Source of the DNA: Acidobacteriota bacterium
GTDB taxonomy: Bacteria > Acidobacteriota > Terriglobia > UBA7540
Length of the DNA: 64,000 nt
Reading direction: 5' to 3'
NCBI GenBank assembly: GCA_902812415.1
Contig: CADDZJ010000003.1
Coordinates: 1-64,000, forward strand
In this document: in pieces, positions 1,370-36,902 of the stretch
How the letters are laid out: every line of letters begins with the position of its first letter
How positions within the stretch are numbered: position 1 is the first letter of the stretch
The notes under the pieces: model-generated
The model's input: only the letters and a program-made list of their open reading frames with translations
What the model was told of the DNA's origin: nothing
Database searches by the model: none
Made by a program: the position numbers and the translations under genes

Positions 1370-1381
1370 TGGACAAAGCGC

Positions 1382-2830: not shown

Positions 2831-2993
2831 CCCTCATGCCCCAGTACAGGGGAATAGGCACCCACCCGACCCCTAAAGTTTTCGCAACTGTCACTGCTGG
2901 GAAGTAAACAACACCGTTCAAAATCTCGGAAGCTGGGCGTAGAAGCAGCTATTTGACTAACCAGAGTTACCAAAAGTAGCGAAAGAGAGAACT

Positions 2994-4921: not shown

Positions 4922-5001
4922 GTAACAGTCCCTCAAGGTGTGGGCTTCTGCACGGGTCATCGTCCAATCACGGACGCCGAACAGTCAGACAACCGATTAG
5001 T

Positions 5002-6060: not shown

Positions 6061-6121
6061 TTCCTAGAACACCCCATTTCCACCACAATCACTCGAATTC
6101 AGCCATCGTCGAACTTACCCC

Positions 6122-8585: not shown

Positions 8586-8644
8586 AGCTTAGTACGTCTT
8601 GGTAAATTCACCGAACGCTCGGTCACGGGCACAGTTAAATAGGG

Positions 8645-9742: not shown

Positions 9743-9807
9743 ATTCTCTCCCCGAACTTAAACAAGAAGTCTCTTTTCGCCCGCGCTGAGTTTACGCTTT
9801 TCGAGAA

Positions 9808-9944
9808 TTACAAATTATTGACAATGAAAACGGCAGCGGCGCTGTCCCCAGCGCCGAAAAACGCCGGTGAGAGCCCGCCCTGAGCGAAGCGAAGCAACAC
9901 CAGCGCTACAGAAAACGATGTCACGATAATTTGCAAACCTCAGT
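9808..9944. repeat. Dispersed palindromic repeat, copy B (between ugd and uxs)
   Basis: An imperfect inverted repeat. The left arm begins TTACAAATTATTGACA; the right arm, read in reverse complement, begins ACTGAGGTTTGCAAATTA and continues with CTGTAGCGCTGG. The outer part (GTCACGATAATTTG.AAA.CTCAGT) matches the right end of the element at 55593-55721 almost base for base, and the centre contains the same GCGCCGA...CGGCG arm sequence. It occupies most of the 218-bp gap between ugd and uxs without breaking either gene. Confidence 0.7.
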
Positions 9945-9960
9945 AAATGTCCAAGCGCTA

Positions 9961-11331
9961 TCAGGCCAAGGCCACAGCCCCAACCTCTGCGCTCTGCCCG
10001 ATTCCGATGTATTGGAACCCGTGCGCAATCACTTTTTCCCGCGCGAGCATATTTCTGCCATCCACCAGGAGGGGGCGGTCCATCAGCCTTCGCACGCGCT
10101 CCAAATCCGCATGGCCGAATTCTTCCCATTCCGTGAGCAGTAATAAAGCCTCGGCGCCCTCGACAGCTTCATAGGGATTCTGACAATAACGAATCTCAGG
10201 AAGCTCTTCTTTCGCCTTGGTCATAGCCTGAGGGTCGTAGGCTGAGACGTCTGCGCCTTCGGCAAGCAGGCGCTGAATGATGGCGAGAGATGGAGCAAAC
10301 CGGATATCGTCGGTGTCCGGTTTAAAGGCCAAACCCCAAATTCCGATCTTCTTCCCGCGCAGCACCCACAATTCTCTCCGAACCTTTTCCACAAACTGGT
10401 CCACCCGCCGCAGATTGATCTTTTCCACTTCGCGGAGCAGAGAAAAGTCCAGGCCGAGCCTTTCGCCGATTCTTACAAAAGCCTGGAGATCCTTTGGGAA
10501 ACAGAAACCTCCGAAACCAATTCCGGGGCGAAGAAAGGAAGCGCCAATTCTTCGATCCAGACCAATCCCTTCCGCAACCTTTGTGATATCCGCTCCTGCG
10601 GCCTCGCATAGGTCGGCAATGAGATTGATGAAAGAAATCTTCATAGCCAGGAAAGAATTGGAAGCGTGCTTCACCAGTTCGGCGCTATTGATATCTGTGA
10701 TGACCAAGGGAGGCACTGAGCGATCCTCACAGGATGCATGAACCGGGCAGGCAAATTGCTGTTCCAGGATTGGCTCGTAGATTTCCCTCATGGCGTTGGC
10801 GGCATTAGGGCTTTCGACACCGATCACGATGCGATCCGGATGGAAGAAGTCTTCAACGGCGCTGCCTTCCCGCAAGAATTCTGGATTTGACGCCACGTCG
10901 TATGTAAACTCCGCGCGTCTGTAAAGTCTCAGATGCCTCTGCAATTGCCGTCCCGTTTGCACTGGAACCGTGCTTTTCTCAATCACCAGCCTGTAGCCTG
11001 TGGCCTGCTGCGCAATAGTCCGGGCAACGCCTTCAATGGCCGTAAGATCAGCCTCGCCGTTCTCCAGAGGCGGCGTGCCCACACAAATAAAGATGGCATG
11101 GCTGCGCGCGATCGCTTCGGGCGTTGAGGTAAATGAAAGCCTGCCAGCCTGCCGATTCCTTTGCACCAATTCTTCCAGATGCGGTTCAAAAAAGGGCAGC
11201 GCCCCGCGCTTCAACAATTCCAGTTTTTGGACGTTGCTTTCAGCGCAACTGACCTCGTGACCGATCTCAGCCAAGCACGCGGCGGTTGTGAGTCCAACGT
11301 ATCCTGCTCCGATAACAGCTATTTGCATCAT
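9961..11331 (-). CDS. ugd: UDP-glucose 6-dehydrogenase
   Basis: It oxidises UDP-glucose to UDP-glucuronate with two NAD+. The 456-residue protein has IAVIGAGYVGLTTAACLAE (Rossmann, residues 4-22), FICVGTPPLENGEADLTAIE, EKSTVPVQTG, the SNPEFLREGSAVEDF block, Lys221 in the central helix (ELVKHASNSFLAMK) and the catalytic Cys277 in GFGGFCFPKDLQAF. All catalytic residues of the family are present. The ATG at 11331 has AAGGA five bases upstream. It lies between the Wzc-like gene and the UDP-glucuronate decarboxylase, which together gives a UDP-Glc to UDP-GlcA to UDP-Xyl route. The decarboxylase starts 218 bp downstream, past a repeat element. Confidence 0.95.
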   Translation of the reverse strand: MMQIAVIGAGYVGLTTAACLAEIGHEVSCAESNVQKLELLKRGALPFFEPHLEELVQRNRQAGRLSFTSTPEAIARSHAIFICVGTPPLENGEADLTAIEGVARTIAQQATGYRLVIEKSTVPVQTGRQLQRHLRLYRRAEFTYDVASNPEFLREGSAVEDFFHPDRIVIGVESPNAANAMREIYEPILEQQFACPVHASCEDRSVPPLVITDINSAELVKHASNSFLAMKISFINLIADLCEAAGADITKVAEGIGLDRRIGASFLRPGIGFGGFCFPKDLQAFVRIGERLGLDFSLLREVEKINLRRVDQFVEKVRRELWVLRGKKIGIWGLAFKPDTDDIRFAPSLAIIQRLLAEGADVSAYDPQAMTKAKEELPEIRYCQNPYEAVEGAEALLLLTEWEEFGHADLERVRRLMDRPLLVDGRNMLAREKVIAHGFQYIGIGQSAEVGAVALA

Positions 11332-11391
11332 GTGATTCCTTGCCAGAGGGCAATCTCAACTAAAAGGGAGGTCGATATAGACTGAACATGC

Positions 11392-13725
11392 TTAAGTATG
11401 ATCGCTGGCGCCATCCCGGCCATTGTAATGATCAGGGTTGCTCCCGTACCCATACCCATATCCATATCCATATCCGTAGTTACCGCTCATATATCCGTCG
11501 CCATCGCGTCGCAGATCAACGTCATTAAGCGCCACACCCAGAATACGCGCGTTAGCTCCGTACAACAAAGAGCGAGCGCGCCGGACCACATCATAGGAAG
11601 TGGAATGCGCGCGAGTCACCAGAATCGCAGCATCGGTCAGAGTAGCAAGAATCCGGCTATCAGCAACGCTTAAGATAGGCGGTGAATCCACCAGAACAAA
11701 TTCAAACTCAGTCCGCAGCCTCCGCAGGAGCTCGCCCGTCATATGAGAAGAGAGCACTTCAGCCGGATTCGGCGGAATCGGGCCGCAAGGGATGGCACTT
11801 AAATACGGAATGCCTGGAACGGGAAGAATGGCCTCTTTCAGATCGACATGGCCCGTAAGGCACTGAACGAATCCAGGCTTGTTTTCGACTCCGGCAGAAC
11901 GATGCAAGGCGGGACGCCGCATGTCGCAATCGACAATCACGACCTTGGTATTCAAGCTCGCAAGAACGGCGCCCAGATTTACAGCCGTGGTCGTTTTCCC
12001 TTCGCTGGGCAGAGCGCTGGTAATCAGAAGGAGCTTCGGCACTGGGCTTGCCGAAAGCAGAATCGATGTCCGCAATGACCGGAAAGCTTCGGCAACTTCA
12101 GGTGAGTTCTGAATGGCAGGAGCCAGGTGTCCATTGCCATTAGCATGAACCGGAATCAGCCCTTCTTCTTCCCCCTCATGGTGGTGGCCATTCAAAGCAA
12201 ATTTCGGAAGAATGCCAAGCGAAGGCAGCCTGACCAGACGCTCCACATCGTCCGCTGATTTGAGAGTCTTATCAAGATACTCCTGAAAGAAAGCCAGTCC
12301 AATTCCCAGTGCAAGCCCCAGGAAAACACCCAATCCCAAATTGAGATAGACACGCGGCTTCACCGGACTCTTGGGGACAACCGCTGTGTCCACAACCCGA
12401 ATGTTCGTGGCGTTGAGGCCGGCAGATACCTGCGCTTCCTTCATCCGCTGCAGGAGACCCTGGTAAAGCTCGCGGTTGGAATCCACTTGCCGCTTCAGGA
12501 TGTTGTATTGAACGAGTTTCTGGTTGAGCGCAGTCATCGTTCGCTTTTGCTGGTTGATGGCCTGCTCAAGGTACTTCACACGGTGCTCAGCAGATTTGTA
12601 CTCCTGGACGATGTTTTCGATAATCGCGGCCTTCTTCTTGTCCAGCTGCTTTTGAAGGGCCTTGATCTGCCGTTGAATCTGCCGCGCTTTGGGATAATCC
12701 GGTTTCACCCAGGCGGTGATCATGGCGTACTGCTGCTGCTCGTCAGCTACTTTTTCCTCAAGCGCCTGAATCAGCCCATTGTTCAACACGCCCGGAAGGT
12801 CTTCAACCTTTCCCTTTTGCACCAGGCTGTAAAGGGCTTGTTTCTGAAACATGTCAGCCTGGGCCTGGCTGTAATCCTGCAAAAGCCCTTCCATGCGAGC
12901 GCTGGCCATACTTTGCTGGCTGTTGTCTTTGGTGTCGATATAGAGAATACCGTGAGATTGAGCGTAAGCTTGCAGCGCATCCTCGGACTTCTCCAGCTTA
13001 GCCTTCATTTCATAGAGCCGGCCGGAGAGCCATTTAGAGGCCTTGATCGTCTCATCCCACTTCACTTGAAGGTTCTGATCAATATAGTCCTGCGAGAGCT
13101 TATTGGCTATACGCGCCGCAAGTTCAGGACTGTAAGAGTCAAAGGAAACCTGGACTAAATTGCTTCGCCGCACCGGGCTTACATCAATCGAATTTTGCAC
13201 ATACGAAATGCTGTTTCGATAGTAATCTGCATTCAGATCAGGATTAGGATCCGAGGCGGAAGGATGAGTTTCAGGGTCAGTTGTGTACAAGCCAAAGAGG
13301 TGGCGAGCCCGATAAAATTCAGGCAAGCGATATAACTGCAAATCGTCAACAACTCGCTCAGCAAGGCTCCGGCTTTTAAGGATTTTATATTGGGTCTCAA
13401 GATAGGCGCTTACATCGACTGGGCTTACGCTGACAACCTCCTTAAAATTCACTACGTTAGGCGGCTCGGGATCAATCTCGATCAGAACCTTGCCTTCGTA
13501 GACCGGTTTTTCTTTGAGCGTGCCGATCGCGACGGTGGCAAATACAATCACAAGGCACGAAAGCACCACCCAACGCCTCTTCTTAATGATGGCCCAATAA
13601 TCCAGCAGGTGCGGCACTTCTTCTGACGAGACATCGACGATTTGCTGCGCGTCTAAAGCCTGTGTACCGCCTCGGGGAATCATTTCAAGGGGCAGCATGG
13701 CTTGACGTTTTTCGAGTTCGTCCAT
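11392..13725 (-). CDS. Wzc-like polysaccharide co-polymerase and BY-type tyrosine autokinase
   Basis: This 777-residue inner-membrane protein controls chain length and export of the exopolysaccharide. Layout: Wzz domain with first membrane helix near residues 52-70 (VVLSCLVIVFATVAIG); long periplasmic coiled-coil region (residues 180-430); second helix (LGLGVFLGLALGIGLAFF); then a cytoplasmic bacterial tyrosine kinase with Walker A SALPSEGKTTTAVNLG, Walker A' VVIVDCDMRRP and Walker B FVLVDSPPIL. The C-terminal tail holds the Tyr cluster that is autophosphorylated, here a run of six Tyr-Gly units plus flanking tyrosines. I chose ATG 13725 (AAGGAG upstream); an in-frame start 26 codons earlier would overlap the neighbour's untranslated region. 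It is encoded 22 bp after the Wza-like exporter, its usual partner. Confidence 0.92.
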   Translation of the reverse strand: MDELEKRQAMLPLEMIPRGGTQALDAQQIVDVSSEEVPHLLDYWAIIKKRRWVVLSCLVIVFATVAIGTLKEKPVYEGKVLIEIDPEPPNVVNFKEVVSVSPVDVSAYLETQYKILKSRSLAERVVDDLQLYRLPEFYRARHLFGLYTTDPETHPSASDPNPDLNADYYRNSISYVQNSIDVSPVRRSNLVQVSFDSYSPELAARIANKLSQDYIDQNLQVKWDETIKASKWLSGRLYEMKAKLEKSEDALQAYAQSHGILYIDTKDNSQQSMASARMEGLLQDYSQAQADMFQKQALYSLVQKGKVEDLPGVLNNGLIQALEEKVADEQQQYAMITAWVKPDYPKARQIQRQIKALQKQLDKKKAAIIENIVQEYKSAEHRVKYLEQAINQQKRTMTALNQKLVQYNILKRQVDSNRELYQGLLQRMKEAQVSAGLNATNIRVVDTAVVPKSPVKPRVYLNLGLGVFLGLALGIGLAFFQEYLDKTLKSADDVERLVRLPSLGILPKFALNGHHHEGEEEGLIPVHANGNGHLAPAIQNSPEVAEAFRSLRTSILLSASPVPKLLLITSALPSEGKTTTAVNLGAVLASLNTKVVIVDCDMRRPALHRSAGVENKPGFVQCLTGHVDLKEAILPVPGIPYLSAIPCGPIPPNPAEVLSSHMTGELLRRLRTEFEFVLVDSPPILSVADSRILATLTDAAILVTRAHSTSYDVVRRARSLLYGANARILGVALNDVDLRRDGDGYMSGNYGYGYGYGYGYGSNPDHYNGRDGASDHT
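11443..11482 (-). repeat. Hexanucleotide tandem repeat encoding (Tyr-Gly)6
   Basis: On the coding strand the units are TACGGA, TATGGA, TATGGA, TATGGG, TATGGG and TACGGG, i.e. six near-identical hexamers in a row. Each adds one Tyr-Gly pair to the kinase tail. Unit loss or gain would keep the frame and change only the number of phosphorylatable tyrosines. Confidence 0.85.
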
Positions 13726-13747
13726 TGGGCTCCTTGTATTTAGACCT

Positions 13748-14950
13748 TTACAGGCCGCGCCAGATGATGAGACCGCTGATCGTCCCGATGGCTGCGGCGG
13801 CACCTTGTTTCCCGATATATTTGCCCGTGCTATCCGGCACGACCAGAATATCGTTCGCTGTGAGGATCGGATCCTCTGCCTTTCCTTTTACGATTTTCCC
13901 CAAATCGATTTGTGCAATGGTACGCTTCCCGTCCGGCAGTTCATGAATGATCTGAGAATGGCTCTTCCTGGCATTGGTTGCGAAACCTCCTGCCAAGGCC
14001 AAGGCTTGCAAAGCCGTTAAGCTGTCACGGTCTTCCAAAGTATATCCGCCCGGCCTACCTACAGCTCCCACTACGTAGACAATTCCAGCCCGGCTGACTG
14101 TGATAGTGTCGAAAGCCTGGACAGGAATATTGAGGGCGCTATCGTGCTCATACAACAACCTTCCCAGATCGATTTTGATCTGATCCGGCGCCACGACCTT
14201 CAAGCCCTCACTGGGCTTCAAATTTTGAAAGCCCCCCTTGCGGGTTACATAGACCCACCGACCAGCAGCAGCGCTACCCCCAGTCGCATTTCCCACACCG
14301 GTTCCGGGCATATTAACGCCGCCTGCCATGGCAATGACCTGCACCAAAGTCCGTGGACCGGGCAATTGATAAAGTCCGGGCTTGGCTACCGCCCCCACCA
14401 CCGACACCGGTCGAGCATGAAATTGCTTGATGAATAACGTAACCCGAGGATCTTCAAGATACTTCTTTCCCCAGTCCGTTTGTAGTTCGTCTCTTAGCTG
14501 GTCGCTGGTCAGTCCTGCAGCCCGCACACGCCCCAGCAATTTAACGGTAATGGTCCCATCGTTCTCCACACGAACTGTCTGCGTCATCTCAGGAAGATTA
14601 AAAACCGTGATCGTGATCACATCTTCGGGGCCCAGGACGTAATCCGGACCGATCATGCCTCCACCTGCCGGGCCTCCATTCGTAGCCTCCTCCTGATTCG
14701 GCTCCGTGGATGGCACGCCCGCCCCAGGATCCTGGTCTTGCGCAGCGCTCTGATCCTGCGGCAAGACGCTATTCTGATCTGTAGACTGAGCCAGAAGAAG
14801 CGGCCGGCCAAGTAAAAAGCCACATAGAGCAAATCCTATGACCAAACTGGCCAATCGCGGGAATACGCCCGTGTTTCCTTTGCCAGCTTCCGACAGAACT
14901 GCGGTCTCAGAATGCGAATAAAGGCAAGAAAAAAACAGTTTTCCTAGCAT
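13748..14950 (-). CDS. Wza-like polysaccharide export outer-membrane protein
   Basis: A 400-residue exporter of the Poly_export/SLBB family that forms the outer-membrane channel for the polymer. A signal-like hydrophobic stretch (LASLVIGFALCGFLLG) ends near residue 55, after an unusually long polar N-terminus, so translation may start later than the ATG at 14950. DYVLGPEDVITITVFNLPEM opens the Poly_export domain. Two SLBB domains follow: VSVVGAVAKPGLYQLPGPRT and VYVVGAVGRPGGYTLEDRDS. The C-terminus ends in a hydrophobic helix (IGTISGLIIWRGL), as expected for the barrel-forming segment. It is the first gene of the exopolysaccharide operon, 20-30 bases after a predicted transcription start. Confidence 0.9.
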   Translation of the reverse strand: MLGKLFFSCLYSHSETAVLSEAGKGNTGVFPRLASLVIGFALCGFLLGRPLLLAQSTDQNSVLPQDQSAAQDQDPGAGVPSTEPNQEEATNGGPAGGGMIGPDYVLGPEDVITITVFNLPEMTQTVRVENDGTITVKLLGRVRAAGLTSDQLRDELQTDWGKKYLEDPRVTLFIKQFHARPVSVVGAVAKPGLYQLPGPRTLVQVIAMAGGVNMPGTGVGNATGGSAAAGRWVYVTRKGGFQNLKPSEGLKVVAPDQIKIDLGRLLYEHDSALNIPVQAFDTITVSRAGIVYVVGAVGRPGGYTLEDRDSLTALQALALAGGFATNARKSHSQIIHELPDGKRTIAQIDLGKIVKGKAEDPILTANDILVVPDSTGKYIGKQGAAAAIGTISGLIIWRGL

Positions 14951-25118: not shown

Positions 25119-25589
25119 TCAGGCGCTCCAGCCGGTGCGGCTGGGAGGGCGCTCATTCGGAGCGTGAGGGGGATTTGTGGGAGAAAAGTTTTGGGCCGTT
25201 GGAGATGGCGGATTGGCGCTTGCGGGCGCTTCCACCTGCTGCCAGGCGTTTCGCACTTCAGTAAAATCTGCGGCAAGGGTGCGGAGAATTTCTGCGGAAA
25301 GAGTCGCGCTCGCTTGAACAATCTCGCGCTGCGCCAGGGCGTAGAAACGGTCGAGATAGAGCGCCGTTTCGCCGCCCTTCTCAAAGTCAATGATGGCCCG
25401 CAAATGGCTGATGAACATTGTCGCCCGATTCAGTTGATTGGTTTTCTCCTCGATATCACGGCGCTCGATCGCTCGCACCGTGGCGTAAAGCGAAGCGATG
25501 ATCTCGTCGTAGCAGCGGATCACCAGCGAGACGATGTTGGCTCCCTGCGAGGAGAGTTGTCGATAAGCCTGGACGACGTTTTGAGCCAT
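25119..25589 (-). CDS. fliS: Flagellin export chaperone FliS
   Basis: A 156-residue all-helical cytoplasmic chaperone that binds the flagellin C-terminus and prevents premature polymerisation. [31 protein letters not shown] matches the FliS opening (normally with PxxLvxmLYdgal), and [19 protein letters not shown] is the central conserved helix. The ATG at 25589 is chosen over a TTG four codons upstream. The last 35 residues are a Pro/Ala/Ser-rich tail beyond the normal length. It is the third gene of a fliC-fliD-fliS group, 217 bp after fliD. The gap contains AT-rich near-repeats (variants of AAATTTGAAATCTGAAATTT). Confidence 0.85.
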
Positions 25590-25806
25590 AAACGATCTCA
25601 AATCTCAAATTTGAAATCTGAAATTTTGAATAATTTGAAATCAGCAGTGTTCGATTAAAACTCAACCAGTATCAGTTGCGTAGCAAGATTGGCGTCTTCA
25701 GCTTCCAGACCACTGCTTGCGTGGGATGACAGCGAAGAGATCTTGCAAGTCAAAGACTTACTGGCGCAATTCTTTTTCAGCGCCACAAACTGTCGTCTCA
25801 CAGCCT

Positions 25807-27198
25807 TTAGGGCAGAGACGATGATGACGAAGACGGCGCCGCCGAGGAAATGCCGCCCAGCGAGCTAAGCTGCCCGTTAATTTGCGCGATCAAGAGCGGC
25901 AATTGTTGCAGCGTGGCGTTGATCTGACTGTATTCCTGAATCCAGGTTTGCTGCTGCTGGGCCAGGTTCGTCTGAAAATCGCTGATCTGCTGCGAAAGGC
26001 TCTGCTGCTCCTGGCTGATGCCCTGAAGGTCGATATTCAGCGGGCCGCTTGCCGGATCCGTGAGGCTTTGCAATGAATTATAAAAATTCACCGCAAAGCC
26101 GTTGGGCGAACTCGTCTGCTGGAAGAATGACTGCACGGCGCTGAAATTATTATTGAGCGCCGAGGTCAGAGCGCCGTTATCCACGGACAGAGTGCCGTCG
26201 TTGTTGACCGTGATGCCGAGCGAGGCCAGGCTGGTGATGCCATTGTTTCCAGTAAGCGTGTAATTTAGGTCCGAAGCCAGAATGTTTTGCACGAGGCTCA
26301 GCGAGCTATCCGTGAGAAGCGGAGGTTGCTGGGAAGCGCCCGGAGTGACGGTGTACTGGGCATTGACCGCTTGCACGACCGCGTTATAGGCCGAAACAAA
26401 ATTGTTGATCGCAGTCGTCGCCTGGCTGGTATCCGGATTCAGAGTCAGCGTGACCGCCGAAGCCGAGGTTCCGGTTAAATTGAGCGTAACGCCCGGAATG
26501 ACTCCGGTGACGGTATTGCTGGCGCTGTTGATGGGAACGCCGTCCACCGTGAGAGATGCATTCGCGCCGGTCACGGCTTTGGTAAAGCTCAGCCCCGTCG
26601 TATTGCCGCTGATCGTCAGGTCGCCTGCGGCGCCGCCCGTATTGCTGACCAAGGACAGGCGCGCGCCATTCGAATCCGTGATCACGCTGGCCGTCACGCC
26701 ATCGTTCTGGCTATTGATGTAGGAGGCGAGCGTGTTCAAAGTGTCGTTGGAGCTATCTACCGTGATCGTGACCGGAGCATTTGAGCCAACTTGCAGTGTG
26801 AACTGCCCGGTTCCGAACGTCGTATCGCCCGACGCCAGCGCGCCCGTGTAATAGGAAGATGTTGTGGCTAAAGAATTGACGGTGATGGTATGGGAACCGG
26901 TCGTCGCGCCGGAGCCGGCGGTTGCCGTCAAAACGCCTGTATTCGAAGATGTCGCCGTCTCAGCCGAGAGGGCCCCTAACGGATCTTGCAGGGCGCTGAC
27001 AGCCGTCTGGAGATTCCCGAGAAGTGTGTTGATATTGTTGAGGGCCGAAGTCTGGGAGGTGTAGAGTTGCTGTTCCTGAAGCAGCGGCGCTTCGGATTGC
27101 TGGGCAGCCGCAACCAGTTGGCTTACCGTCTGCTGGACGTTTAAGCCGCTTCCCAACCCGAGTCCCGCCGTATTAAGGTTGATTCCAAAAATCCCCAT
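25807..27198 (-). CDS. fliD: Flagellar hook-associated protein 2 (filament cap)
   Basis: FliD caps the growing filament and helps flagellin insert. The 463-residue protein begins with LGLGSGLNVQQTVSQLVAAAQQSEAPLL, the N-terminal FliD signature. It has the D2/D3 region TITVNSLATTSSYYTG and LNTLASYINSQNDGVTASVI, and a C-terminal coiled coil QEQQSLSQQISDFQTNLAQQQQ that packs in the filament. The tail ends in a short Ser run. AAGGAG lies ten bases before the ATG. It is encoded 84 bp after fliC, beyond a hairpin that resembles an intrinsic terminator, so expression may be lower than flagellin. Confidence 0.93.
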   Translation of the reverse strand: MGIFGINLNTAGLGLGSGLNVQQTVSQLVAAAQQSEAPLLQEQQLYTSQTSALNNINTLLGNLQTAVSALQDPLGALSAETATSSNTGVLTATAGSGATTGSHTITVNSLATTSSYYTGALASGDTTFGTGQFTLQVGSNAPVTITVDSSNDTLNTLASYINSQNDGVTASVITDSNGARLSLVSNTGGAAGDLTISGNTTGLSFTKAVTGANASLTVDGVPINSASNTVTGVIPGVTLNLTGTSASAVTLTLNPDTSQATTAINNFVSAYNAVVQAVNAQYTVTPGASQQPPLLTDSSLSLVQNILASDLNYTLTGNNGITSLASLGITVNNDGTLSVDNGALTSALNNNFSAVQSFFQQTSSPNGFAVNFYNSLQSLTDPASGPLNIDLQGISQEQQSLSQQISDFQTNLAQQQQTWIQEYSQINATLQQLPLLIAQINGQLSSLGGISSAAPSSSSSSLP

Positions 27199-27282: not shown

Positions 27283-28104
27283 TTACTGGAGCAACCTGAG
27301 GACGCCCTGTTGCGCCGAATTTGCCTGCCCCAGAGCGTAAATGCCCGTCTGTTGCAGGATGAGGTACTTCGACAGATTCGACACCACCTGGGGCATATTG
27401 GCCGCCAGGATGGCGTTCTGGGCCGACGTGATGTTCTGTACCTGAACGTTTTCAACACTCTGCGCAGCCTGCATCTGGTTCACGGCGGCGCCGATTGAGC
27501 CGCGCAATGCCGCCGCCTTCTGGATCGCGGTGTTGACGTCCGTAAGAGCGGTTTGGGCGGAGGCCGATGAGTTCAAGTTATCGGTGGCGAGACCTGAAGC
27601 CAAAGCGCTGGCGCTCAACACCCCCACATTAAATGAAATCGTGGTGCTGGCGGTTGCATCGCTCAGGAAAACGCTCGTGGTGGAGGCGGTAAACACCGAG
27701 GTTCCGTTAAACGTGGTGTAGTTGCCGATCTGGTTGATTTCATTCAGAATCGACTGAAATTCCGTATTGAGCGCGGTGTATTGCGAGGTGGAAAGCCCGC
27801 TCTGTCCGGCTTCGGTGGCCAGCGTGACAGCGCGGTTCAGCATGTTGCTGACCTGTGAGAGAGCGCCGTCCGCCACCTGCGCCAGGCCGATGCCGTTGTT
27901 GACATTGTTGACCGACTGAGTGAGAGCGGCGATGTTTGCGCCGAGTTGGTCTGCAATCTGCAAGCCAGCCGGATCATCCGCGCCGCTGTTAATGCGAGAG
28001 CCCGAAGACAATTGGTACAACGTCGATTGCAACGAAGCGGACGTCTGAGTCAGTTGGTTCTGGGCTTGAATTGAAGCAAGATTATTAAGGACGCCAAGTC
28101 CCAT
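27283..28104 (-). CDS. fliC: Flagellin
   Basis: A 273-residue flagellin, the filament subunit. The N-terminal D0/D1 part has NNLASIQAQNQLTQTSASLQ, LSSGSRINSGADDPAGLQIA and a coiled segment NGIGLAQVADGALSQVSNML. The C-terminal D1/D0 part has VDTAIQ-like VNTAIQKAAALRGSIGAAVNQMQ and ends ANSAQQGVLRLLQ. The central variable domain is reduced to about 60 residues, so this is a minimal flagellin whose surface is rich in Ser/Thr (TASTTSVFLSDATASTT), as expected of a glycosylation target. AAAGGAG lies seven bases before the ATG, and a sigma-28 promoter is 105 bases upstream. Confidence 0.95.
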   Translation of the reverse strand: MGLGVLNNLASIQAQNQLTQTSASLQSTLYQLSSGSRINSGADDPAGLQIADQLGANIAALTQSVNNVNNGIGLAQVADGALSQVSNMLNRAVTLATEAGQSGLSTSQYTALNTEFQSILNEINQIGNYTTFNGTSVFTASTTSVFLSDATASTTISFNVGVLSASALASGLATDNLNSSASAQTALTDVNTAIQKAAALRGSIGAAVNQMQAAQSVENVQVQNITSAQNAILAANMPQVVSNLSKYLILQQTGIYALGQANSAQQGVLRLLQ

Positions 28105-28254: not shown

Positions 28255-29607
28255 TCAGGATTTGCGGGCCTGGCAATGCGCCTGCTGAGGCTGGCCCGCC
28301 ATCCCCTGGATTTCCGCCAAGGCTTGCTGCAATTTCCGAGCGTCCGGAAAACGCCTAACCCCTTCCTGGAGCAGGGTTAGGGCACGGGGCCAATTCTGCA
28401 ATTGGGCGTGAATGCTCGCCGCTCGCAGGTAGCCTCCCGGCTCGGGTTCCACGGCGCGAAGCTTTGCCTCTGCGGTTCCAGCGGCTTCCCGAAGATTTCC
28501 GCTCATGGCATAAGCGGCCATCAAACGGTCATAAAGCTCGCCGGCATAAGGCTCCTGCTTCACCGCATCTTTCATGGCGGCTAATCCCGACGCTGCTCGT
28601 CCCAGGCGGAATTCGACTAATCCAATTTTGCTTTGGAGATAAGCCGAAGACCCGGCCTGCTGAAGCGCGCGGCGATAGGCTCGCCTTGCCGATTCAAAAT
28701 CTCCCAGGTTGTAATAGGAGTCGCCCATCGCCTCGCTGATCAAAGCCGTTTGAGGCCCTACTTTCTGCGCCTGCTCAAGGCAACGGAGGGCTTCCGCGCT
28801 CCGCCCCAGGCGAAGCAGCGCCAGACCCGAAAAAAGCCAGGAGATGGAAACGCGAGGATTCAGTTCGCTCGCGCGCTTGAAGCAGGCCAGGGCGGCCTCA
28901 TAATCCTTAAAGCTGTTAAACTCTTCCAGCCCCAGCTCAAAATGAGCCTGCGCATCATCCGGCATTTCCCGGACTTTCGCCTGGCCAAGCTCACGGTAGA
29001 GGCGGCTTTTCTGCTGGCGGATTTCCGGGTCTGCCATCAGGCCGAAATGATGAATCACAAAATTGGCGCGCTCCAGCTTGAATCCACAGGCAAGCACCCT
29101 CGGGCCCACGGTCTCATGGACCCGGCCCACAAAATAAATTCCCGGATGATGACGGAACAGGCGCACGTTTTCATGCTCGACATACGCCGGATATTGCCGC
29201 GCTTGCGGAGGGCCGGACATGTTGAGTTGCGCTGCCCGATCCCATACGCGCTCGGTGAGGCTCCGCACATAGTTCCGAATGGAAACGTGGTAACCGCCCA
29301 CTTCATCACGCAACAGCGAGCGAATATTGTCGCTCGCTGAAGCATCCAGCATCTCGTCAGCGTCCAGCACCAGCACCCAATCGGATTTCACCTGTGACAG
29401 CGCCTTGTTTCGCGCCGCCGCAAAGTCCTGTTCCCAGGGAATAGAAGTGATTTTCGCTCCGTAGCGGAGGGCCACCGATTCTGTCGCATCGGTCGAGCCG
29501 GTATCCGCGATAACAATCTCATCCGCCACGCCGCGAACGCTTTCCAGGCAGTCTGCCAATGTCGCCGCAGCATTGCGCACGATCATCGAAAGGGCTAGCG
29601 AAGGCAT
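28255..29607 (-). CDS. Family 2 glycosyltransferase with TPR repeats
   Basis: A 450-residue protein with an N-terminal GT2 domain (PSLALSMIVRNAAATLADCL, EIVIADTGSTDATE, DWVLVLDADEMLD) and a C-terminal half of tetratricopeptide repeats, e.g. AQAHFELGLEEFNSFKDYEA, ISWLFSGLALLRLGRSAEAL and AMGDSYYNLGDFESARRAYR. GT2-TPR proteins occur in flagellin or surface-protein glycosylation, where the TPR part holds the protein acceptor. I chose the ATG at 29607, which overlaps the preceding GT gene by 13 bases; a longer N-terminus would be Arg-rich and unlike the family. It is the gene nearest to fliC in a four-gene set, which supports a flagellin-modifying role by inference. Confidence 0.85.
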   Translation of the reverse strand: MPSLALSMIVRNAAATLADCLESVRGVADEIVIADTGSTDATESVALRYGAKITSIPWEQDFAAARNKALSQVKSDWVLVLDADEMLDASASDNIRSLLRDEVGGYHVSIRNYVRSLTERVWDRAAQLNMSGPPQARQYPAYVEHENVRLFRHHPGIYFVGRVHETVGPRVLACGFKLERANFVIHHFGLMADPEIRQQKSRLYRELGQAKVREMPDDAQAHFELGLEEFNSFKDYEAALACFKRASELNPRVSISWLFSGLALLRLGRSAEALRCLEQAQKVGPQTALISEAMGDSYYNLGDFESARRAYRRALQQAGSSAYLQSKIGLVEFRLGRAASGLAAMKDAVKQEPYAGELYDRLMAAYAMSGNLREAAGTAEAKLRAVEPEPGGYLRAASIHAQLQNWPRALTLLQEGVRRFPDARKLQQALAEIQGMAGQPQQAHCQARKS

Positions 29608-31868
29608 AAATGGCGAATTCTCTCCAGGTACAGGGCCGTTACCCTGCTCCAATCGAGCGCTTGATGAACCGCCTCGGCAGCGCCGGCGGCGCGTTGCCGG
29701 GTCTCTTCGCGGCGCTCGTAAACACACCGCATCGTGGCGGTCAATTCTTCAAGATCGGGTTCAAACCAGGTGAAAGGCCCGGCCATTTCACCCAATGGCG
29801 GATGCGGTTTGGGGACCTCCACTTCCTGAGCCGAGATGAAATAGGAAGCCTCGCCTGGACAGAACTCCCTTGCAGGTCCTAAGCCTGTCGTGATCACCGG
29901 TTTGCCGCAGGCCAGAGCTTCCGCCAGAGGCATTCCAAATCCTTCGCCCCGATAGGGCAGGATAAACACGTCGCATCCGCGATAAAGCGCCGCGAGGTCC
30001 TTATCCGCCATCTCGTCACTGATCAGGACCACATGGGGCGCGCCTGAGCGACGCATGGCGCGGCGAATCTCTCGCGTCAGCGAAAGACCGCGGTAGAAAG
30101 TCTTTGAGCCGAGTTCCTTGATAATGAGCGTCACGTCATCCGCAGCGGTGAAAGCCTGCTGGTAAGCCTTCAAGAGCAGGTCAATCCCCTTGCGCGCAAT
30201 CGCTCCACCCACAAACAGAAAAACAAAACTCCGGCTGCCTGCGGGACGCGAGGCAATTCCTTCAGGAGTGAAAACCGTCCGATCCATGCCATAAGGGACC
30301 ACGCTGATGCGCGAAGGGTCCACGCCGCATCGGACGAAAACATCCCGAACGAAGCGCGAGCAAACGCACAATTCGTCGACACTTTCTTCAATTTCCTTCA
30401 CCCAGCGGCGCGGGACGGCGCCAAATTCCCAGGGCACAATACTCAAAAGCTTTCCCGAGGAAGGGCGGCTGAAATCCGGCGGCCAGTGATGACGAATGGT
30501 AAGGTCCAGGTGGGCAACCCGGCGCATCAAGCCTTGAGATAAAGCTTCATGATGGTTAAAAGCGCGGGCGGGCGCGAGTGCAAAATCGTGAGGCTCGAGG
30601 CTGACGTCCAGAGTTGAGTCGCTCATGAGCGCCGCGCCGATCTCGCGGTTAATACGCGCGAAGCTGGCGTTGGAAAAATAATTGCCAATCAACATGACGC
30701 CGGGTTTGGCGGCGGTAGGCCAGGAAGCGGGGCGATAAGCTGCGGCCACCGATTCCAATTGTTCATGCCACATGCCAGGCCGCGCCTCCGGCGGCCTGAC
30801 CAATTCAAGCATCCGCCTTGCCGCGTCAATCTGCCGGTGTAATAACAGGAAGTAAAAGACAGGCTCAAAATAACGCGGCTCGCGCCGCACCACCGCGCAG
30901 AGATCGAAGATTTGCAGCTCGTGAGCGACCCTGTAGGGAAACCGCTGCCGGAGAATTCCAACAACCGAAGGTTCAAAAGCAGGCTTCGCCAGAAGGCCCG
31001 AGGAAAAATACCGGTAGGCAACCGCCTGATGGCCCGCGCTCTCGGCCACAGCTCCCAGGACCCACTGCGCCCGATAAGAATTTTCCCCGCCCGAGCCGAT
31101 GAACGAGGGGTCTGACTGCTCAACCGCTCGCTTGAGATAGCTCACCACGCCTTGCGGCTTCCCCTGGCGGGCGCGCAGCCACATGGTGAGGAATGGCAGT
31201 TCAGCATATTTGGGAAAGGCTTTCATTCCCGTCTCAAGAAGCTGCTCGGCGCTTGGGATGTTGCCCTGACGAATAAGGAGCACGATCAGATTGCGCAGCA
31301 CAAGCGTGGCAAGGATAGGATGCAAGCGCCCCTCGCCCCACATTCCGGCAAGTCCGGTCAGGGCTCTTTCCGGGGCTTCCTGGGCGATTTGGAGCAGATT
31401 GCATAGGCGCGCCCAAGGCTCATGACTTCCCTGCAAAAATCCCGACAGGATCGGGGAAGGCTTGGGGCTGGCGGCGATGCGATAACTGCAATTGATATAA
31501 TCCTCGCAAGCTCCGGTTGTCCAGCTACGAGGCTGAAGGCCGATCAGATCCATATCGGTAAGGCAAGGATAATGAACCGCGACGAACGATCGCCGCCCGG
31601 GAAGCAAAAGATCATGCCGTATGCCCGCGCTTGAGCCGCAGAGCAGACGCTCACCGGCAAACCAGAAAAGCGCAGCATCCGACTGAGGCGGGATATAGCC
31701 CGGATGCCACGATGACGCTTCGCCCATCTCGATCGTTTCCACGGCTGACAAAATCTCCGACGGAATATCAGTTTCAGACTGTGCGTCGGTCAGCAGGCAG
31801 GCGCGCGAACTGCGCTCGTAAGCGCTCTGAACTTCAAACGAATCGGACTTGACGACGTAAAAAGGCAT
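29595..31868 (-). CDS. Large protein with TPR-like middle and C-terminal GT4 domain
   Basis: A 757-residue protein. Residues 1-130 show no family I recognise. Residues 130-330 look helical and repeat-like (ILATLVLRNLIVLLIRQGN, AEQLLETGMKAFPKYAELPF). The last 370 residues are a GT-B glycosyltransferase of the GT4 group: VVPYGMDRTVFTPEG, FVFLFVGGAIARKGIDLLLKAY and LPYRGEGFGMPLAEALACGKP, with the E-x7-E donor motif. It overlaps the GT2-TPR gene and starts 14 bp after another GT4 gene, so the three are co-transcribed. A role in glycan assembly on flagellin is inferred from position only. Confidence 0.8.
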   Translation of the reverse strand: MPFYVVKSDSFEVQSAYERSSRACLLTDAQSETDIPSEILSAVETIEMGEASSWHPGYIPPQSDAALFWFAGERLLCGSSAGIRHDLLLPGRRSFVAVHYPCLTDMDLIGLQPRSWTTGACEDYINCSYRIAASPKPSPILSGFLQGSHEPWARLCNLLQIAQEAPERALTGLAGMWGEGRLHPILATLVLRNLIVLLIRQGNIPSAEQLLETGMKAFPKYAELPFLTMWLRARQGKPQGVVSYLKRAVEQSDPSFIGSGGENSYRAQWVLGAVAESAGHQAVAYRYFSSGLLAKPAFEPSVVGILRQRFPYRVAHELQIFDLCAVVRREPRYFEPVFYFLLLHRQIDAARRMLELVRPPEARPGMWHEQLESVAAAYRPASWPTAAKPGVMLIGNYFSNASFARINREIGAALMSDSTLDVSLEPHDFALAPARAFNHHEALSQGLMRRVAHLDLTIRHHWPPDFSRPSSGKLLSIVPWEFGAVPRRWVKEIEESVDELCVCSRFVRDVFVRCGVDPSRISVVPYGMDRTVFTPEGIASRPAGSRSFVFLFVGGAIARKGIDLLLKAYQQAFTAADDVTLIIKELGSKTFYRGLSLTREIRRAMRRSGAPHVVLISDEMADKDLAALYRGCDVFILPYRGEGFGMPLAEALACGKPVITTGLGPAREFCPGEASYFISAQEVEVPKPHPPLGEMAGPFTWFEPDLEELTATMRCVYERREETRQRAAGAAEAVHQALDWSRVTALYLERIRHLCLR

Positions 31869-31882
31869 CGATTTTTCAGGAG

Positions 31883-33166
31883 CTATCCTTCCAGCAATCG
31901 ACGAAATTCAGCCACCCAGCGCGGGATGATGACTCGCCAATCGAATTGCGAGACCATCTCCGCGCGGCCTCGCGCCGCTCGCGCTTGCGCCGCTTCGGGA
32001 TTGGAGAAAACCCGCCGCATCTGCTGGCGCAGATGTTCCAGGCTAGGCTCAGCCCAGCGGTGTCCGGCGAAGTGCTCGAGATCAACTTGGAAAGAGACCG
32101 GAAAGACCCCCTCAATCTCAACCGGATAGCTGTTTGAATCATTCAAAAAGTCCGCTTGCCCGCTCCACTGCGTCCCAATCACGGGCATCTGGCAGGCCAG
32201 CGCTTCCATATAAGGCCGCCCGTAACCTTCCCCACGGCTTGGCAGCACAAAGGCATCGGCGGAAGCGTACAGGCGCGGCATATCAGCTTGTGGGATGAAG
32301 CCGTTAAGTAAAATAATAGGAGGCGTTTTTTCAAGTGGCAGGCCTACTTCCCTTTCCAGAAAATAGACAATTTTGGATTCCAGATCTGCGAGTGGATCAT
32401 TGATTTGGTAGACCTTCAAAATGAGACAAACGTCCTCATCCGCCTTAAATTCCGCGGTATAGGCTTTGAATAGAACGTCGTATCCTTTCCGGTCGTGCCA
32501 GTCAAAGACTGAAAGAAAGGAAAATTTACGTTTTTTCGGAATCGTGAGAGGCTTCAATCCGGGCCGGAAAAGCTTCGTGTCAACTCCGGCAGGCATAATT
32601 TTCAGCCTGGTCTCCTGGACTCCCGAAGCTGCAAAAGTCTCAAAATTGAACGGGCTCGGAACCCAGATTTCATCCATCCGGTTGCAGAGATCCTTCCAGC
32701 CGTCCGGAATTCGGTCAGTCTCGAACATGGTGCGGGCCACCCGGCAGCGTCCATAAGTTTCAAGATCCCAGCCGTCGGCAGGCGAGCCCTGGTAGTAGAC
32801 GCTCCGGGATAAGTCCAGCCGGGTATGCTTCAGTTGCTCAAGCTTCTGGCGCGACTCCACCGGAAGGAGCCTTTTGCTATCCTTGCGGGCGCCCATCGGG
32901 ACAAGTTGGACGGGTATCCCGCTCTCAGCCAGTCCTAAAGCTTCCACCCACGCTTCCTCGCCGTAACCCGTGCCGCCATAGACCAGCGCTCGAAACAACA
33001 CGCCGGCGGAGACCTCGGGTTGGCTTATGCGCTCCGATGCTGGCGCGGAGACCGTAGGCGCAAGTTTCAGGTCAGAAATCTGCTCTCGATGAATGCCTGG
33101 GGTGGATGGCTCTGAAAAAGTTGTACCCGCATTTTGAGATGCTGGCTCTGGCGTCGTAACTCGCAT
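31883..33166 (-). CDS. Glycosyltransferase family 4 (GT-B)
   Basis: A 427-residue protein. The first 55 residues are polar and probably disordered (SQNAGTTFSEPSTPG...), then a GT-B fold begins with FRALVYGGTGYGEEAWVEAL. The acceptor domain has RTMFETDRIPDGW and VPSPFNFETFAASGV. The donor domain has FLSVFDWHDRKGYDVLFKAY and VLPSRGEGYGRPYMEALAC with the paired Glu residues. It is close in type to the C-terminal half of the next gene, so an old duplication is possible. It lies 14 bp upstream of that gene in the set before fliC. Donor unknown. Confidence 0.83.
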   Translation of the reverse strand: MRVTTPEPASQNAGTTFSEPSTPGIHREQISDLKLAPTVSAPASERISQPEVSAGVLFRALVYGGTGYGEEAWVEALGLAESGIPVQLVPMGARKDSKRLLPVESRQKLEQLKHTRLDLSRSVYYQGSPADGWDLETYGRCRVARTMFETDRIPDGWKDLCNRMDEIWVPSPFNFETFAASGVQETRLKIMPAGVDTKLFRPGLKPLTIPKKRKFSFLSVFDWHDRKGYDVLFKAYTAEFKADEDVCLILKVYQINDPLADLESKIVYFLEREVGLPLEKTPPIILLNGFIPQADMPRLYASADAFVLPSRGEGYGRPYMEALACQMPVIGTQWSGQADFLNDSNSYPVEIEGVFPVSFQVDLEHFAGHRWAEPSLEHLRQQMRRVFSNPEAAQARAARGRAEMVSQFDWRVIIPRWVAEFRRLLEG

Positions 33167-33200
33167 AGCTTTGCGGGATCAGGAGGCTAGTCGCAGGCGG

Positions 33201-34232
33201 CTATAAAGCTCGCAGGACACGCTCTTCGGAAGATGTCGAGAGAGAAGCGCATGCAGCCGCCATTGTCCGATGGGAGACAAAGCAATCCAGGCACTCTTCA
33301 ATCGCCTCGTCAATGCCGACGCAGGCTTCCCAGCCCAGTTCGCGGCGGGCCTTCGTGAAGTCCCCAACTCTTTGCTTCACGTCTGTTTCCACCACGGGAA
33401 GGGACTTGAATTCGAGAGGCCGCGTTGAACGGATCAATCCTCTTTCTTGCGCCTTTCGGTAAATCTTTTGAGCCAGCTCCCGCATGGTGATCAGTTCCGG
33501 ATTTCCCAGATTGAAGACCTGATTCAAGGTGGAAGGCGCAAAGGAAAACCGCGCGATAGCCTCTCCAATTTCACGGATGTGCGCAAAACTTCGCGTCTGA
33601 TAACCGTCACCCAGTATTTCGAGGGGATTTTGCTGCCGCCCCACCAGGCGGTGCGTGAAATCGGCGAAAACATGGCTGACGCCCACATCATCAGACCCCG
33701 CCTCCTGCGGATCGATCACGTTGAATGGCCGCCAGATGGTATAAGGTAGGCGATACTGGTTCCAAAAGGCCAGCGACATTCGCTCCCCGACCAGTTTTGA
33801 GAGTCCGTAATCCGTCCTCGCCAGGCGCAACTCCTCATCATCTTCCCGCAGAGGCTGCGACGTGTGCCGCTCGTAAACCATCGAGGAAGAGACGTAAACC
33901 ACGCGCCCCACCTTCGCCTCCACGCTCAGCCGCAGCACGTTGGCATGCGCGGAAAGATCGTTGCTCAGGATATCCCCCGCGCGGCGATGAAAGCCGATGA
34001 CGCCTGCCAGCGTCGCAGTGGCCTGAATCACCCCATCCACGCCCTCAAGCAGCGGACGCATCACCTCGGGGCTGGCGCAGTTGCCTCGAATAAAGACGTA
34101 ATCACGCCGCTTATCCTGCACCCCCCATTTCTCGCAACTGTCAATGCCCCATACATCGTGCCCTGCCGCAAGAAGATGAGGGATCACTTCCGACATCAAC
34201 CTGCCTTCGCTGCCACATACCAGAATTTTCAA
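33201..34232 (-). CDS. NAD-dependent nucleotide-sugar epimerase/dehydratase
   Basis: A 343-residue extended short-chain dehydrogenase. The N-terminal loop is KILVCGSEGRLMSEVIPHLL, a variant of GxxGxxG in which the third Gly is replaced by Met. The catalytic Tyr-x3-Lys is in ARTDYGLSKLVGERMSLAF, with SSS of YVSSSMVYERH in front. RPFNVIDPQEAGSDDVGVSHV and LGDGYQTRSFAHIREIGEAI are typical of sugar epimerases. It starts at TTG with GGGAGGA six bases upstream. As first gene of the four-gene set before fliC, it would make the sugar donor for those glycosyltransferases; the exact sugar is unknown. Confidence 0.82.
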   Translation of the reverse strand: MKILVCGSEGRLMSEVIPHLLAAGHDVWGIDSCEKWGVQDKRRDYVFIRGNCASPEVMRPLLEGVDGVIQATATLAGVIGFHRRAGDILSNDLSAHANVLRLSVEAKVGRVVYVSSSMVYERHTSQPLREDDEELRLARTDYGLSKLVGERMSLAFWNQYRLPYTIWRPFNVIDPQEAGSDDVGVSHVFADFTHRLVGRQQNPLEILGDGYQTRSFAHIREIGEAIARFSFAPSTLNQVFNLGNPELITMRELAQKIYRKAQERGLIRSTRPLEFKSLPVVETDVKQRVGDFTKARRELGWEACVGIDEAIEECLDCFVSHRTMAAACASLSTSSEERVLRAL

Positions 34233-34927: not shown

Positions 34928-35185
34928 TTGATTCAGCTCACCCGTCTGAATAATCAGCCTTTCGTGGTAAACGCCGATTTGGTTCAATTCATTGAGAAGG
35001 CTCCGGACACCGTCATCACCTTGATTACCGGCGAGAAAGTGGTGGTGAAGGAGCCATTAGAGCAAGTCGTCGATCAGATCCTATCCTTCCGCCGATGCGT
35101 TCTGGCAGGCTTGTGCGCGGCAGCACCCCCAATCACAGCTTTTCGGAAGAGCAACGGCCAGCACGACACACGAGAGACTGAGTAG
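34928..35185 (+). CDS. flbD: Flagellar protein FlbD
   Basis: A small cytoplasmic protein of the FlbD/YlzI family, found next to motA or flgE in many flagellar clusters; its function is poorly known. The first 55 residues match the family closely: IQLTRLNNQPFVVNADLVQF, then TVITLITGEKVVVKEPLEQVV. The last 30 residues (CVLAGLCAAAPPITAFRKS...) are an extra tail. The start is a TTG with GAGAGG upstream. motA begins 12 bases after the stop, so the two are co-transcribed. This is the first gene of the plus-strand flagellar cluster, behind a sigma-54-like promoter. Confidence 0.88.
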   Translation: MIQLTRLNNQPFVVNADLVQFIEKAPDTVITLITGEKVVVKEPLEQVVDQILSFRRCVLAGLCAAAPPITAFRKSNGQHDTRETE

Positions 35186-35196
35186 GAGACCCTGGG

Positions 35197-36009
35197 GTGG
35201 ATAAGGCAACTTTAGGCGGGATACTTATCGCCATTCTTGGCATTTTAGGGGGGATGACGATTGAGGGGGGGAAAATTGCCCAGATCTTGCAGCCTACCGC
35301 CGCGATGATCGTCTTTGGTGGGACGATTGGAGCGGTGCTCATCGGCTTCCCGCTTCCCATCGTCCTCCATGCCGCAAAACGCATGGCAAACATCATCTTC
35401 GAGCCCAAGTGGGATCCGGAAAAATTAATCAAGGAAATCGTAAGCTACGCGAATCAGGCCAGAAAGGAAGGCATTGTCTCCCTCGACCAGAAGCTGCCTG
35501 AGATTGAAGACCCCTTTCTTAAGAAATCTCTCATGCTGGCGATCGACGGCACGGAACCCCAGGAACTGCGAAAAATGATGGAGCTTGAAATGGATAACCA
35601 GGCGGAGCATGAGGAAAAAGTTCCCCAGGTATTCGAATCGGCTGGCGGATACGCTCCCACCATCGGCATTCTGGGCGCGGTCCTGGGGCTCATTCAGGTG
35701 ATGCAGCATCTCGATAACATCAACGAGGTCGGGCGCGGCATCGCCGTGGCTTTCGTGGCCACAGTCTATGGCGTGGGCTCTGCCAACCTCCTCTTCCTCC
35801 CTGCCGCCGGCAAGCTCAAAATTCGCCTGCGCCAGGAACAATTGAGCCGCGAGATGATTCTGGAAGGAGTCATTTCCATCCTTGAAGGGCTGAATCCCCG
35901 CATGGTTGAGACGAAACTGCGCGGATTCCTGGCCACGACCGAAGAGAAAGCAACCGCGGCCAAGGGAGAAGCAAAGGAAGTCAAGGAGCCGGTCGAGGCC
36001 AGCCAGTGA
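35197..36009 (+). CDS. motA: Flagellar motor stator protein MotA
   Basis: MotA forms the ion channel around MotB and applies torque to FliG. The 270-residue protein has four membrane segments: the first two in TLGGILIAILGILGGMTIEG and AAMIVFGGTIGAVLIGFPL, the last two in YAPTIGILGAVLGLIQVM and GIAVAFVATVYGVGSANLLF. The conserved Pro before segment 3 and the cytoplasmic RKEG motif (the torque-loop Arg region) are present. The start is GTG with AGGAG nine bases upstream. Its stop overlaps the motB start as GTGA. Confidence 0.95.
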   Translation: MDKATLGGILIAILGILGGMTIEGGKIAQILQPTAAMIVFGGTIGAVLIGFPLPIVLHAAKRMANIIFEPKWDPEKLIKEIVSYANQARKEGIVSLDQKLPEIEDPFLKKSLMLAIDGTEPQELRKMMELEMDNQAEHEEKVPQVFESAGGYAPTIGILGAVLGLIQVMQHLDNINEVGRGIAVAFVATVYGVGSANLLFLPAAGKLKIRLRQEQLSREMILEGVISILEGLNPRMVETKLRGFLATTEEKATAAKGEAKEVKEPVEASQ

Positions 36010-36902
36010 GCAGAAGGAAAAAAGCCGCAAGCCACGAAAACCACGAGCGGTGGCTGATCTCCTATTCTGATTTCGTCACCCTGCTCTTTGCCTTTTTTGT
36101 GGTCATGTTCTCAGCCTCGCAGGTGGATAAACGGAAAGTCGGGAAAATCGCTGTGGCGATGCAAGTGGCTTTTCAGGACCTCGGCATTTTCGAGAGTTCC
36201 AACACGCACGTTCCGCTGTCCCAGTCTCAACCCCTGCCTTTCTCAACCGTGCAGATGGTGGATAACGCCGCACTAACCACGGTGCTGGGCCGGGTCGCGT
36301 CCTCTCCTGAAGGAGCGCCCGCAGCGGCAACCACCGTGATGAACCTCACGGAGCTGCGCCACAGGCTGGAACAGGCGCTTGCTCCACAGCTCGCGAAGAA
36401 AATTGTGGGGCTGCGCATGAGCCATGACGCGCTCATTCTGAGCCTTCGAGAGGTCGGTTTTTTCGACAGCGGCTCAGCCACTTTGCGGCCCGAAGCCGAG
36501 CCGGTTGTCGCTCGCATTGCCAAAATACTTCAGGCCACGCCGTGCCTTCTTCGGTTTGAAGGGCATACCGATAACGTCCCCATCCATTCGGCTGCTTTTC
36601 CTTCCAACTGGGAGCTTTCCACGGCTCGCGCCACCAACATGGTCCGGCTCTTTATCACTCAGTTCGGCTTTGACCCCACGCGTCTCTCGGCAGCAGGCTA
36701 CTCGAAATATCATCCGATTGCCTCCAACGCAACCTCGGAGGGACGCGCCATGAATCGGCGAGTGGATATCGTGATCCTGCCGCCCGCAACGTGGCCCATC
36801 AATTCCATCCAGGCGTCAGCCACGACCACACTCTCTCCTCTTGCCGCGCATCCAGCCACCCCCAACCTGCGCCCCAATAGCCCCAAAATCACTCAGGAAT
36901 AG
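36006..36902 (+). CDS. motB: Flagellar motor stator protein MotB
   Basis: MotB anchors the stator to peptidoglycan and carries the essential ion-binding Asp, here Asp22 in ISYSDFVTLLFAFFVVMFSA. The 298-residue protein has one membrane helix, a plug/linker, and an OmpA-like domain with GSATLRPEAEPVVARIAKIL and the peptidoglycan-binding FEGHTDNVPIHSAAFPSNWE, plus RAMNRRVDIVI. The last 40 residues are a Pro/Thr/Ala-rich tail. It starts at GTG in a 4-base overlap with motA. H+ or Na+ use cannot be decided from this sequence. A perfect 22-base palindrome begins at the last base of its stop codon. Confidence 0.94.
   Translation: MSRRKKAASHENHERWLISYSDFVTLLFAFFVVMFSASQVDKRKVGKIAVAMQVAFQDLGIFESSNTHVPLSQSQPLPFSTVQMVDNAALTTVLGRVASSPEGAPAAATTVMNLTELRHRLEQALAPQLAKKIVGLRMSHDALILSLREVGFFDSGSATLRPEAEPVVARIAKILQATPCLLRFEGHTDNVPIHSAAFPSNWELSTARATNMVRLFITQFGFDPTRLSAAGYSKYHPIASNATSEGRAMNRRVDIVILPPATWPINSIQASATTTLSPLAAHPATPNLRPNSPKITQE

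Follow-up and report, generated by a model that had tools for sequence, protein, structure and literature searches.

In this work we have analysed a window of 64,000 nucleotides from an Acidobacteriota bacterium, in which a group of sugar genes precedes a flagellin gene. In the order of transcription, on the minus strand, these are genes for an epimerase, a GT4 glycosyltransferase, a protein of 757 aa and a 450-aa protein called here GT2-TPR, followed by fliC and then by fliD and fliS. The initial annotation had described the first four as a glycosylation set lying directly upstream of the flagellin and on its strand; all four open reading frames are indeed present and Pfam agrees with their assignment. 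The epimerase gene (33201..34232) has a TTG start behind a good GGAGG ribosome-binding site, and its product falls into the NAD-dependent NDP-sugar epimerase/dehydratase family (PF01370, E=2e-32). The GT4 gene (31883..33166) matches Glyco_trans_1_4 (E=3e-13), and its product is related to the glycosyltransferase domain of the 757-aa protein. Its start at 33166 is doubtful and a GTG near 33001 is possible, because the alignment with the orthologues begins only at about residue 26-55. Next come the gene of the 757-aa protein (29595..31868), with a Pfam GT4 match at residues ~545-680, and the GT2-TPR gene (28255..29607), whose product matches the GT2 family PF00535 (E=3e-18) and also TPRs. The most likely start of GT2-TPR is the ATG at 29607, which overlaps the preceding gene by 13 bp and is preferred to a GTG at 29727, which lies too early; a stop-start overlap or a gap of a few bases is seen at this junction in G000, G017, G014, G027 and G038. 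On the same strand follow fliC (27283..28104), which encodes a 273-aa flagellin, the predicted substrate, then fliD for the filament cap (25807..27198), the downstream member of the conserved block, and fliS for the flagellin export chaperone (25119..25601, start uncertain). On the other side lie the divergent genes flbD-motA-motB (34928..36902, plus strand), which form the conserved opposite border of the cassette.

Two kinds of promoter had been proposed upstream of these genes. A sigma-54-like site, TGGCAACCGACTTGCT, is found at 34636-34621 on the minus strand upstream of the epimerase (10/12 positions, p~0.055 against shuffled sequences) and is a plausible promoter of the cassette, although control by sigma-54 is weakly supported and such a site is absent at some orthologous loci. 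The sigma-28-like site before the epimerase (34427-34401, 11/16), on the other hand, does not rise above chance (p~0.21) and we do not retain it. The flagellin gene has its own strong sigma-28 site, TAAAGAAT-N11-GCCGATAG at 28236-28210 on the minus strand (13/16 positions, a score reached by 0/200 shuffles), and this site is kept before the flagellin genes of most relatives. In three relatives, G014 (L058), G027 (L059) and G038 (L060), the cassette adjoins two flagellin genes, and in the first two a clear sigma-28 site stands only at the copy farther from the cassette.

We compared this genome with 60 relatives, 61 genomes in all. Full-length orthologues of the 757-aa protein (41-47% identity) occur in seven of the 60, all of which encode flagellin; with the present genome, flagellin thus accompanies the full-length protein in 8/8 genomes, compared with 21/61 overall (hypergeometric p=7e-5, kinship again ignored). 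The order GT4-757-GT2-TPR-fliC is kept in six relatives (G017, G008, G004, G014, G027 and G038), with fliD next in line in five of them (G014, G027, G008, G004, G038); in four (G017, G008, G004, G027) divergent motAB can be seen. The seventh, G024, whose genome is in pieces, keeps 757-GT2-TPR with the flagellin on another contig, and no GT4 gene was found within the stretch retrieved from it. The epimerase is absent from all orthologous loci, and among 80 relatives it has one distant match of 34%; its slot is taken by an FkbM methyltransferase in G017 and by a glycosyltransferase-methyltransferase fusion in G027. Since the epimerase is missing from relatives and methyltransferases stand in its place, the conserved core consists of the three transferases; the gene for sugar modification varies as an accessory, and the epimerase is a peculiarity of this genome. 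The view of the four genes as one set consequently holds for the transferases, which are conserved together with fliC, and not for the epimerase. The 757-type transferase domain is also found in other settings. Two genomes of a distant family encode, next to GT2-TPR and a 241-aa flagellin, a protein of 1,330-1,350 aa that contains three GT4 domains, one being of the 757 type. Against wider genome contigs the 757-aa protein gave only two weak Geobacteraceae glycosyltransferase matches. In one Geobacteraceae MAG (L053, 2504-12197) a weakly related GT4 is accompanied by a protein weakly similar to GT2-TPR, with a weak flagellin/FlgL-like gene within 10 kb of the two.

The association with flagellin extends through the phylum. 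In a sample of 297 genomes searched with a GT2-TPR profile, a strong match was counted in 15, and all 15 encode flagellin, as against 73 of the 297 overall (hypergeometric p=2e-10, with kinship ignored). In 10 of the 15 no more than about 4 kb separates the GT2-TPR gene from the flagellin gene. Some copies (in G118, G154, G196 and G337) show no linkage to flagellar genes of the kinds seen in the window, and because of these some members of the family may have other substrates. The flagellins themselves also differ. The one studied here has a variable segment of just 48 residues (27556..27699, minus strand), 40% of them Ser or Thr, which bears out its earlier description as a very short Ser/Thr-rich domain and makes it the predicted region of O-glycosylation. 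Flagellins at GT2-TPR loci measure 241-284 aa compared with 269-1231 aa elsewhere (p=5e-8), and the Ser/Thr fraction of their variable segment is 0.36 compared with 0.29 (p=4e-5), both differences being confounded by phylogeny. To call the flagellin minimal is correct as far as its short length goes, but flagellins of ~275 aa are not rare in the phylum and occur without the cassette too. Very long flagellins are found in genomes of the same class that have no cassette: 1231 aa in G040 (L069, 7055-10750) and 796 aa in G055 (L068, 7675-10065). Taken together, synteny, the co-occurrence and adjacency throughout the phylum and the short Ser/Thr-rich flagellins support the proposal of glycosylation linked to flagellin.

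Could the transferases nevertheless build another surface glycan, such as an exopolysaccharide, LPS or an S-layer glycan, and merely be neighbours of fliC? The GT4 and epimerase families are generic, and a stand-alone 377-aa glycosyltransferase which is 53% identical to the transferase domain of the 757-aa protein (L061, 7697-8830) belongs to a genome without flagellin, G049. The window also contains a separate cluster of exopolysaccharide type (284-14950, minus strand) with GT4s, GT2s, a methyltransferase, a Polysacc_synt flippase, an epimerase, a UDP-glucose dehydrogenase and a polysaccharide export protein. The cassette, however, holds no flippase, polymerase or export gene, its placement between flbD-motAB and fliC is conserved, the GT2-TPR family co-occurs strictly with flagellin, and its GT2 joined to TPRs has an architecture shared with polypeptide glycosyltransferases. 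We therefore regard another glycan as an improbable product of these genes, and flagellin as their probable target.

The enzyme that would make the first contact with flagellin is GT2-TPR. It consists of a GT-A/GT2 domain (residues ~1-190) with the DxD motif LDADE and a TPR superhelix (~194-440); the DxD is conserved, as is RLFR...VHE...IHHFG. In the predicted structure (pLDDT 90) a GT-A domain is followed by a TPR superhelix with helices at 194-437, and the best full-length PDB matches of this model are SunS and ThuS, with a TM of ~0.5. These are peptide S-glycosyltransferases whose substrates are small bacteriocin peptides, and we know of no flagellar link for them. In sequence the protein is related to GmaR: the transferase domain matches the GmaR structure 22ao with E=2.2e-35 as a profile and E=1.4e-21 as a single sequence, and the TPR region matches residues 7-168 of 7x9r, which is the GmaR TPR region, with E=5.2e-13, colinear with the first match. 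The entry 7X9R covers residues 141-637 of GmaR (PMC9638930). GmaR of Listeria monocytogenes transfers GlcNAc to flagellin and is in addition an antirepressor, and its authors suggest that flagellin is recognised by the TPR domain (PMC9638930). The two proteins thus share a GT2 domain with TPRs directly after it, a sequence relation over both parts and a flagellar context. They differ in length, 637 aa in GmaR and 450 aa here, and in company, as GT2-TPR works beside two more glycosyltransferases and adjoins fliC in a cassette whose opposite border is flbD-motAB. Judged from its sequence, GT2-TPR is of the transferase type of GmaR and not GmaR itself, because at 450 aa it stops within the TPR region and lacks the linker and antirepressor domains. 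It might still be asked if GT2-TPR is, like GmaR with its two functions (PMC9638930), mainly a regulator that binds a repressor and glycosylates only secondarily. The relation to GmaR speaks for such a role, but a protein of this length which ends within the TPRs is too short to include a linker and an antirepressor domain, and the catalytic DxD motif has been kept; we consider a regulatory function highly improbable. By analogy with GmaR, we instead predict that flagellin receives its first sugar from GT2-TPR.

The second large protein of the core is less familiar. The 757-aa protein has an N-terminal region (residues 1-~135), TPR-like helical repeats (~139-376) and a GT-B/GT4 domain (~388-757) in which the E-x7-E motif is intact. 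Its N-terminal region (31449..31868, minus strand) was previously noted as unrecognised, and so it is: residues 1-140 have no Pfam match even at E<=1 and the region is found only in orthologues of the same protein. A weak match of 18 bits between the N-terminal profile and an ORF in L114 was set aside, as nothing else speaks for that reading frame. The structure prediction which had been suggested for the first 130 residues was carried out with AlphaFold, and it returned an alpha/beta-like model of low confidence, mostly with pLDDT <50. By analogy with known systems, the 757-aa protein and the GT4 protein are predicted to be transferases that extend the chain. It may also be that the two TPR enzymes have separate targets, GT2-TPR acting on flagellin and the 757-aa protein on another protein (FliD, for example) or on other sites of flagellin. 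The latter has the TPR-then-GT-B order of FlmG and OGT, its Foldseek alignments to SPINDLY and OGT span both the TPR and the GT-B domains, with low TM-scores, and in FlmG the TPR domain binds flagellin and the C-terminal GT-B domain performs the transfer (PMC7591256). This likeness, however, is one of architecture and structural alignment, and the tandem arrangement of the 757-aa and GT2-TPR genes with near-overlapping ends suggests one pathway. Separate targets seem unlikely to us, and as a variant they would be compatible with the preferred reading, in which both enzymes build one chain on flagellin.

How does the cassette compare with other flagellin glycosylation systems? It has the general mark of such a locus, glycosyltransferase genes whose linkage to the flagellin gene is conserved. 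The initial annotation placed the enzymes outside the well-known Maf/pseudaminate systems; that they match no well-known system at all we cannot uphold, since the key enzyme is GmaR-like and the scheme parallels that of C. difficile type B flagellin, where GT1 adds GlcNAc and GT2 adds two rhamnoses, with methylation (PMC5207246). Compared by scheme only, both have stepwise transferases beside fliC, a HexNAc transferase acting first and extenders after it, and methyltransferase functions occur in the C. difficile locus as they do in relatives of this genome; the extenders here differ in being GT4 enzymes, one of which carries the TPR-like and unrecognised N-terminal regions. In FlmG of Caulobacter crescentus an N-terminal TPR domain is followed by a GT-B domain that transfers pseudaminic acid (PMC7591256). 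The joining of TPRs to a glycosyltransferase and the Maf-independent glycosylation of flagellin are common ground, but in the likely initiating enzyme here the order is reversed and the fold is GT-A; TPRs followed by GT-B are found in the 757-aa protein, in a genome without a NeuB-type synthase. Over the whole genome the best NeuB-family match in a search for such synthases (PseI/LegI/NeuB) reaches 37.9 bits, compared with 212-312 bits for true NeuB elsewhere. Weak matches of this kind occur in every genome, and we read them as related synthases because the scores are clearly bimodal. The reported absence of pse/leg genes accords with this lack of a nonulosonate synthase in the whole genome. 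Maf, too, is likely absent from the genome: PF01973 matched in 0/61 genomes and PF20157 in 0/1, in searches in which no bacterial positive control matched either. The glycosylation islands of Geobacillus resemble the present locus in having variable sugar-gene cassettes with GT2 and GT4 members beside flagellin, and differ in that they contain Maf, joined in many strains by neu or pse genes; a TPR-linked transferase does not figure in the text that was searched (PMC5109656). Other genes adjoin fliC in some relatives. In G054 (L071, 10749-15099), of the same class, a cassette of nonulosonate type fills the slot between fliC and motAB, made up of a GT2, an ATP-grasp enzyme and a true NeuB. In G034 (L062, 10611-12440), of the same family, the gene of a longer flagellin (~411 aa) has as its divergent neighbour one for a 609-aa protein that begins with TPRs and ends in a weakly GT9-like region, a TPR-then-GT order recalling FlmG.

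We propose, with a probability of about 0.85, that the genes form a flagellin O-glycosylation cassette in which GT2-TPR starts the chain and two GT4 enzymes extend it. According to this model, the TPR superhelix of GT2-TPR would capture flagellin in the cytoplasm while it is unfolded or bound to FliS. From a UDP-sugar, most likely that of N-acetylglucosamine or another HexNAc, the enzyme would place the first residue on Ser/Thr of the short variable segment exposed at the surface. The GT4 protein and the 757-aa TPR/GT4 protein would then add more sugars one by one. The epimerase would make or tune one NDP-sugar in this genome, and in relatives methyltransferases may decorate the chain in place of its action. 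The glycosylated flagellin would then be exported and polymerised, and perhaps there is some need for the glycan in filament assembly. We infer the order of the steps and the sugars by analogy with known systems, of which C. difficile type B is the nearest worked-out case. Our literature search on flagellin glycosylation in Acidobacteria/Acidobacteriota found nothing relevant.

Very probably, then, the flagellin-bearing filament is coated with sugar by a known kind of stepwise route, in a gene arrangement not described before. A wider reading, which we consider less likely than not, is that this GmaR-like set serves a coating found throughout the phylum, that the outer domains of flagellin have given way to a sugar chain carried by a short Ser/Thr-rich loop, that the 757-aa enzymes are a new class of flagellin-bound chain extenders, and that the slot between fliC and motAB exchanges whole cassettes (GmaR-like, NeuB and TPR/GT-B sets) within one bacterial class. 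With this cassette, the known range of GmaR-like enzymes that put the first sugar on flagellin would reach into a further phylum, where they belong to a compact, conserved locus with two extenders. It would also offer a testable link between the loss of the outer domains of flagellin and the gain of a sugar coat, and the alternation of cassettes at one locus in relatives would let the function of flagellin glycans be asked directly.
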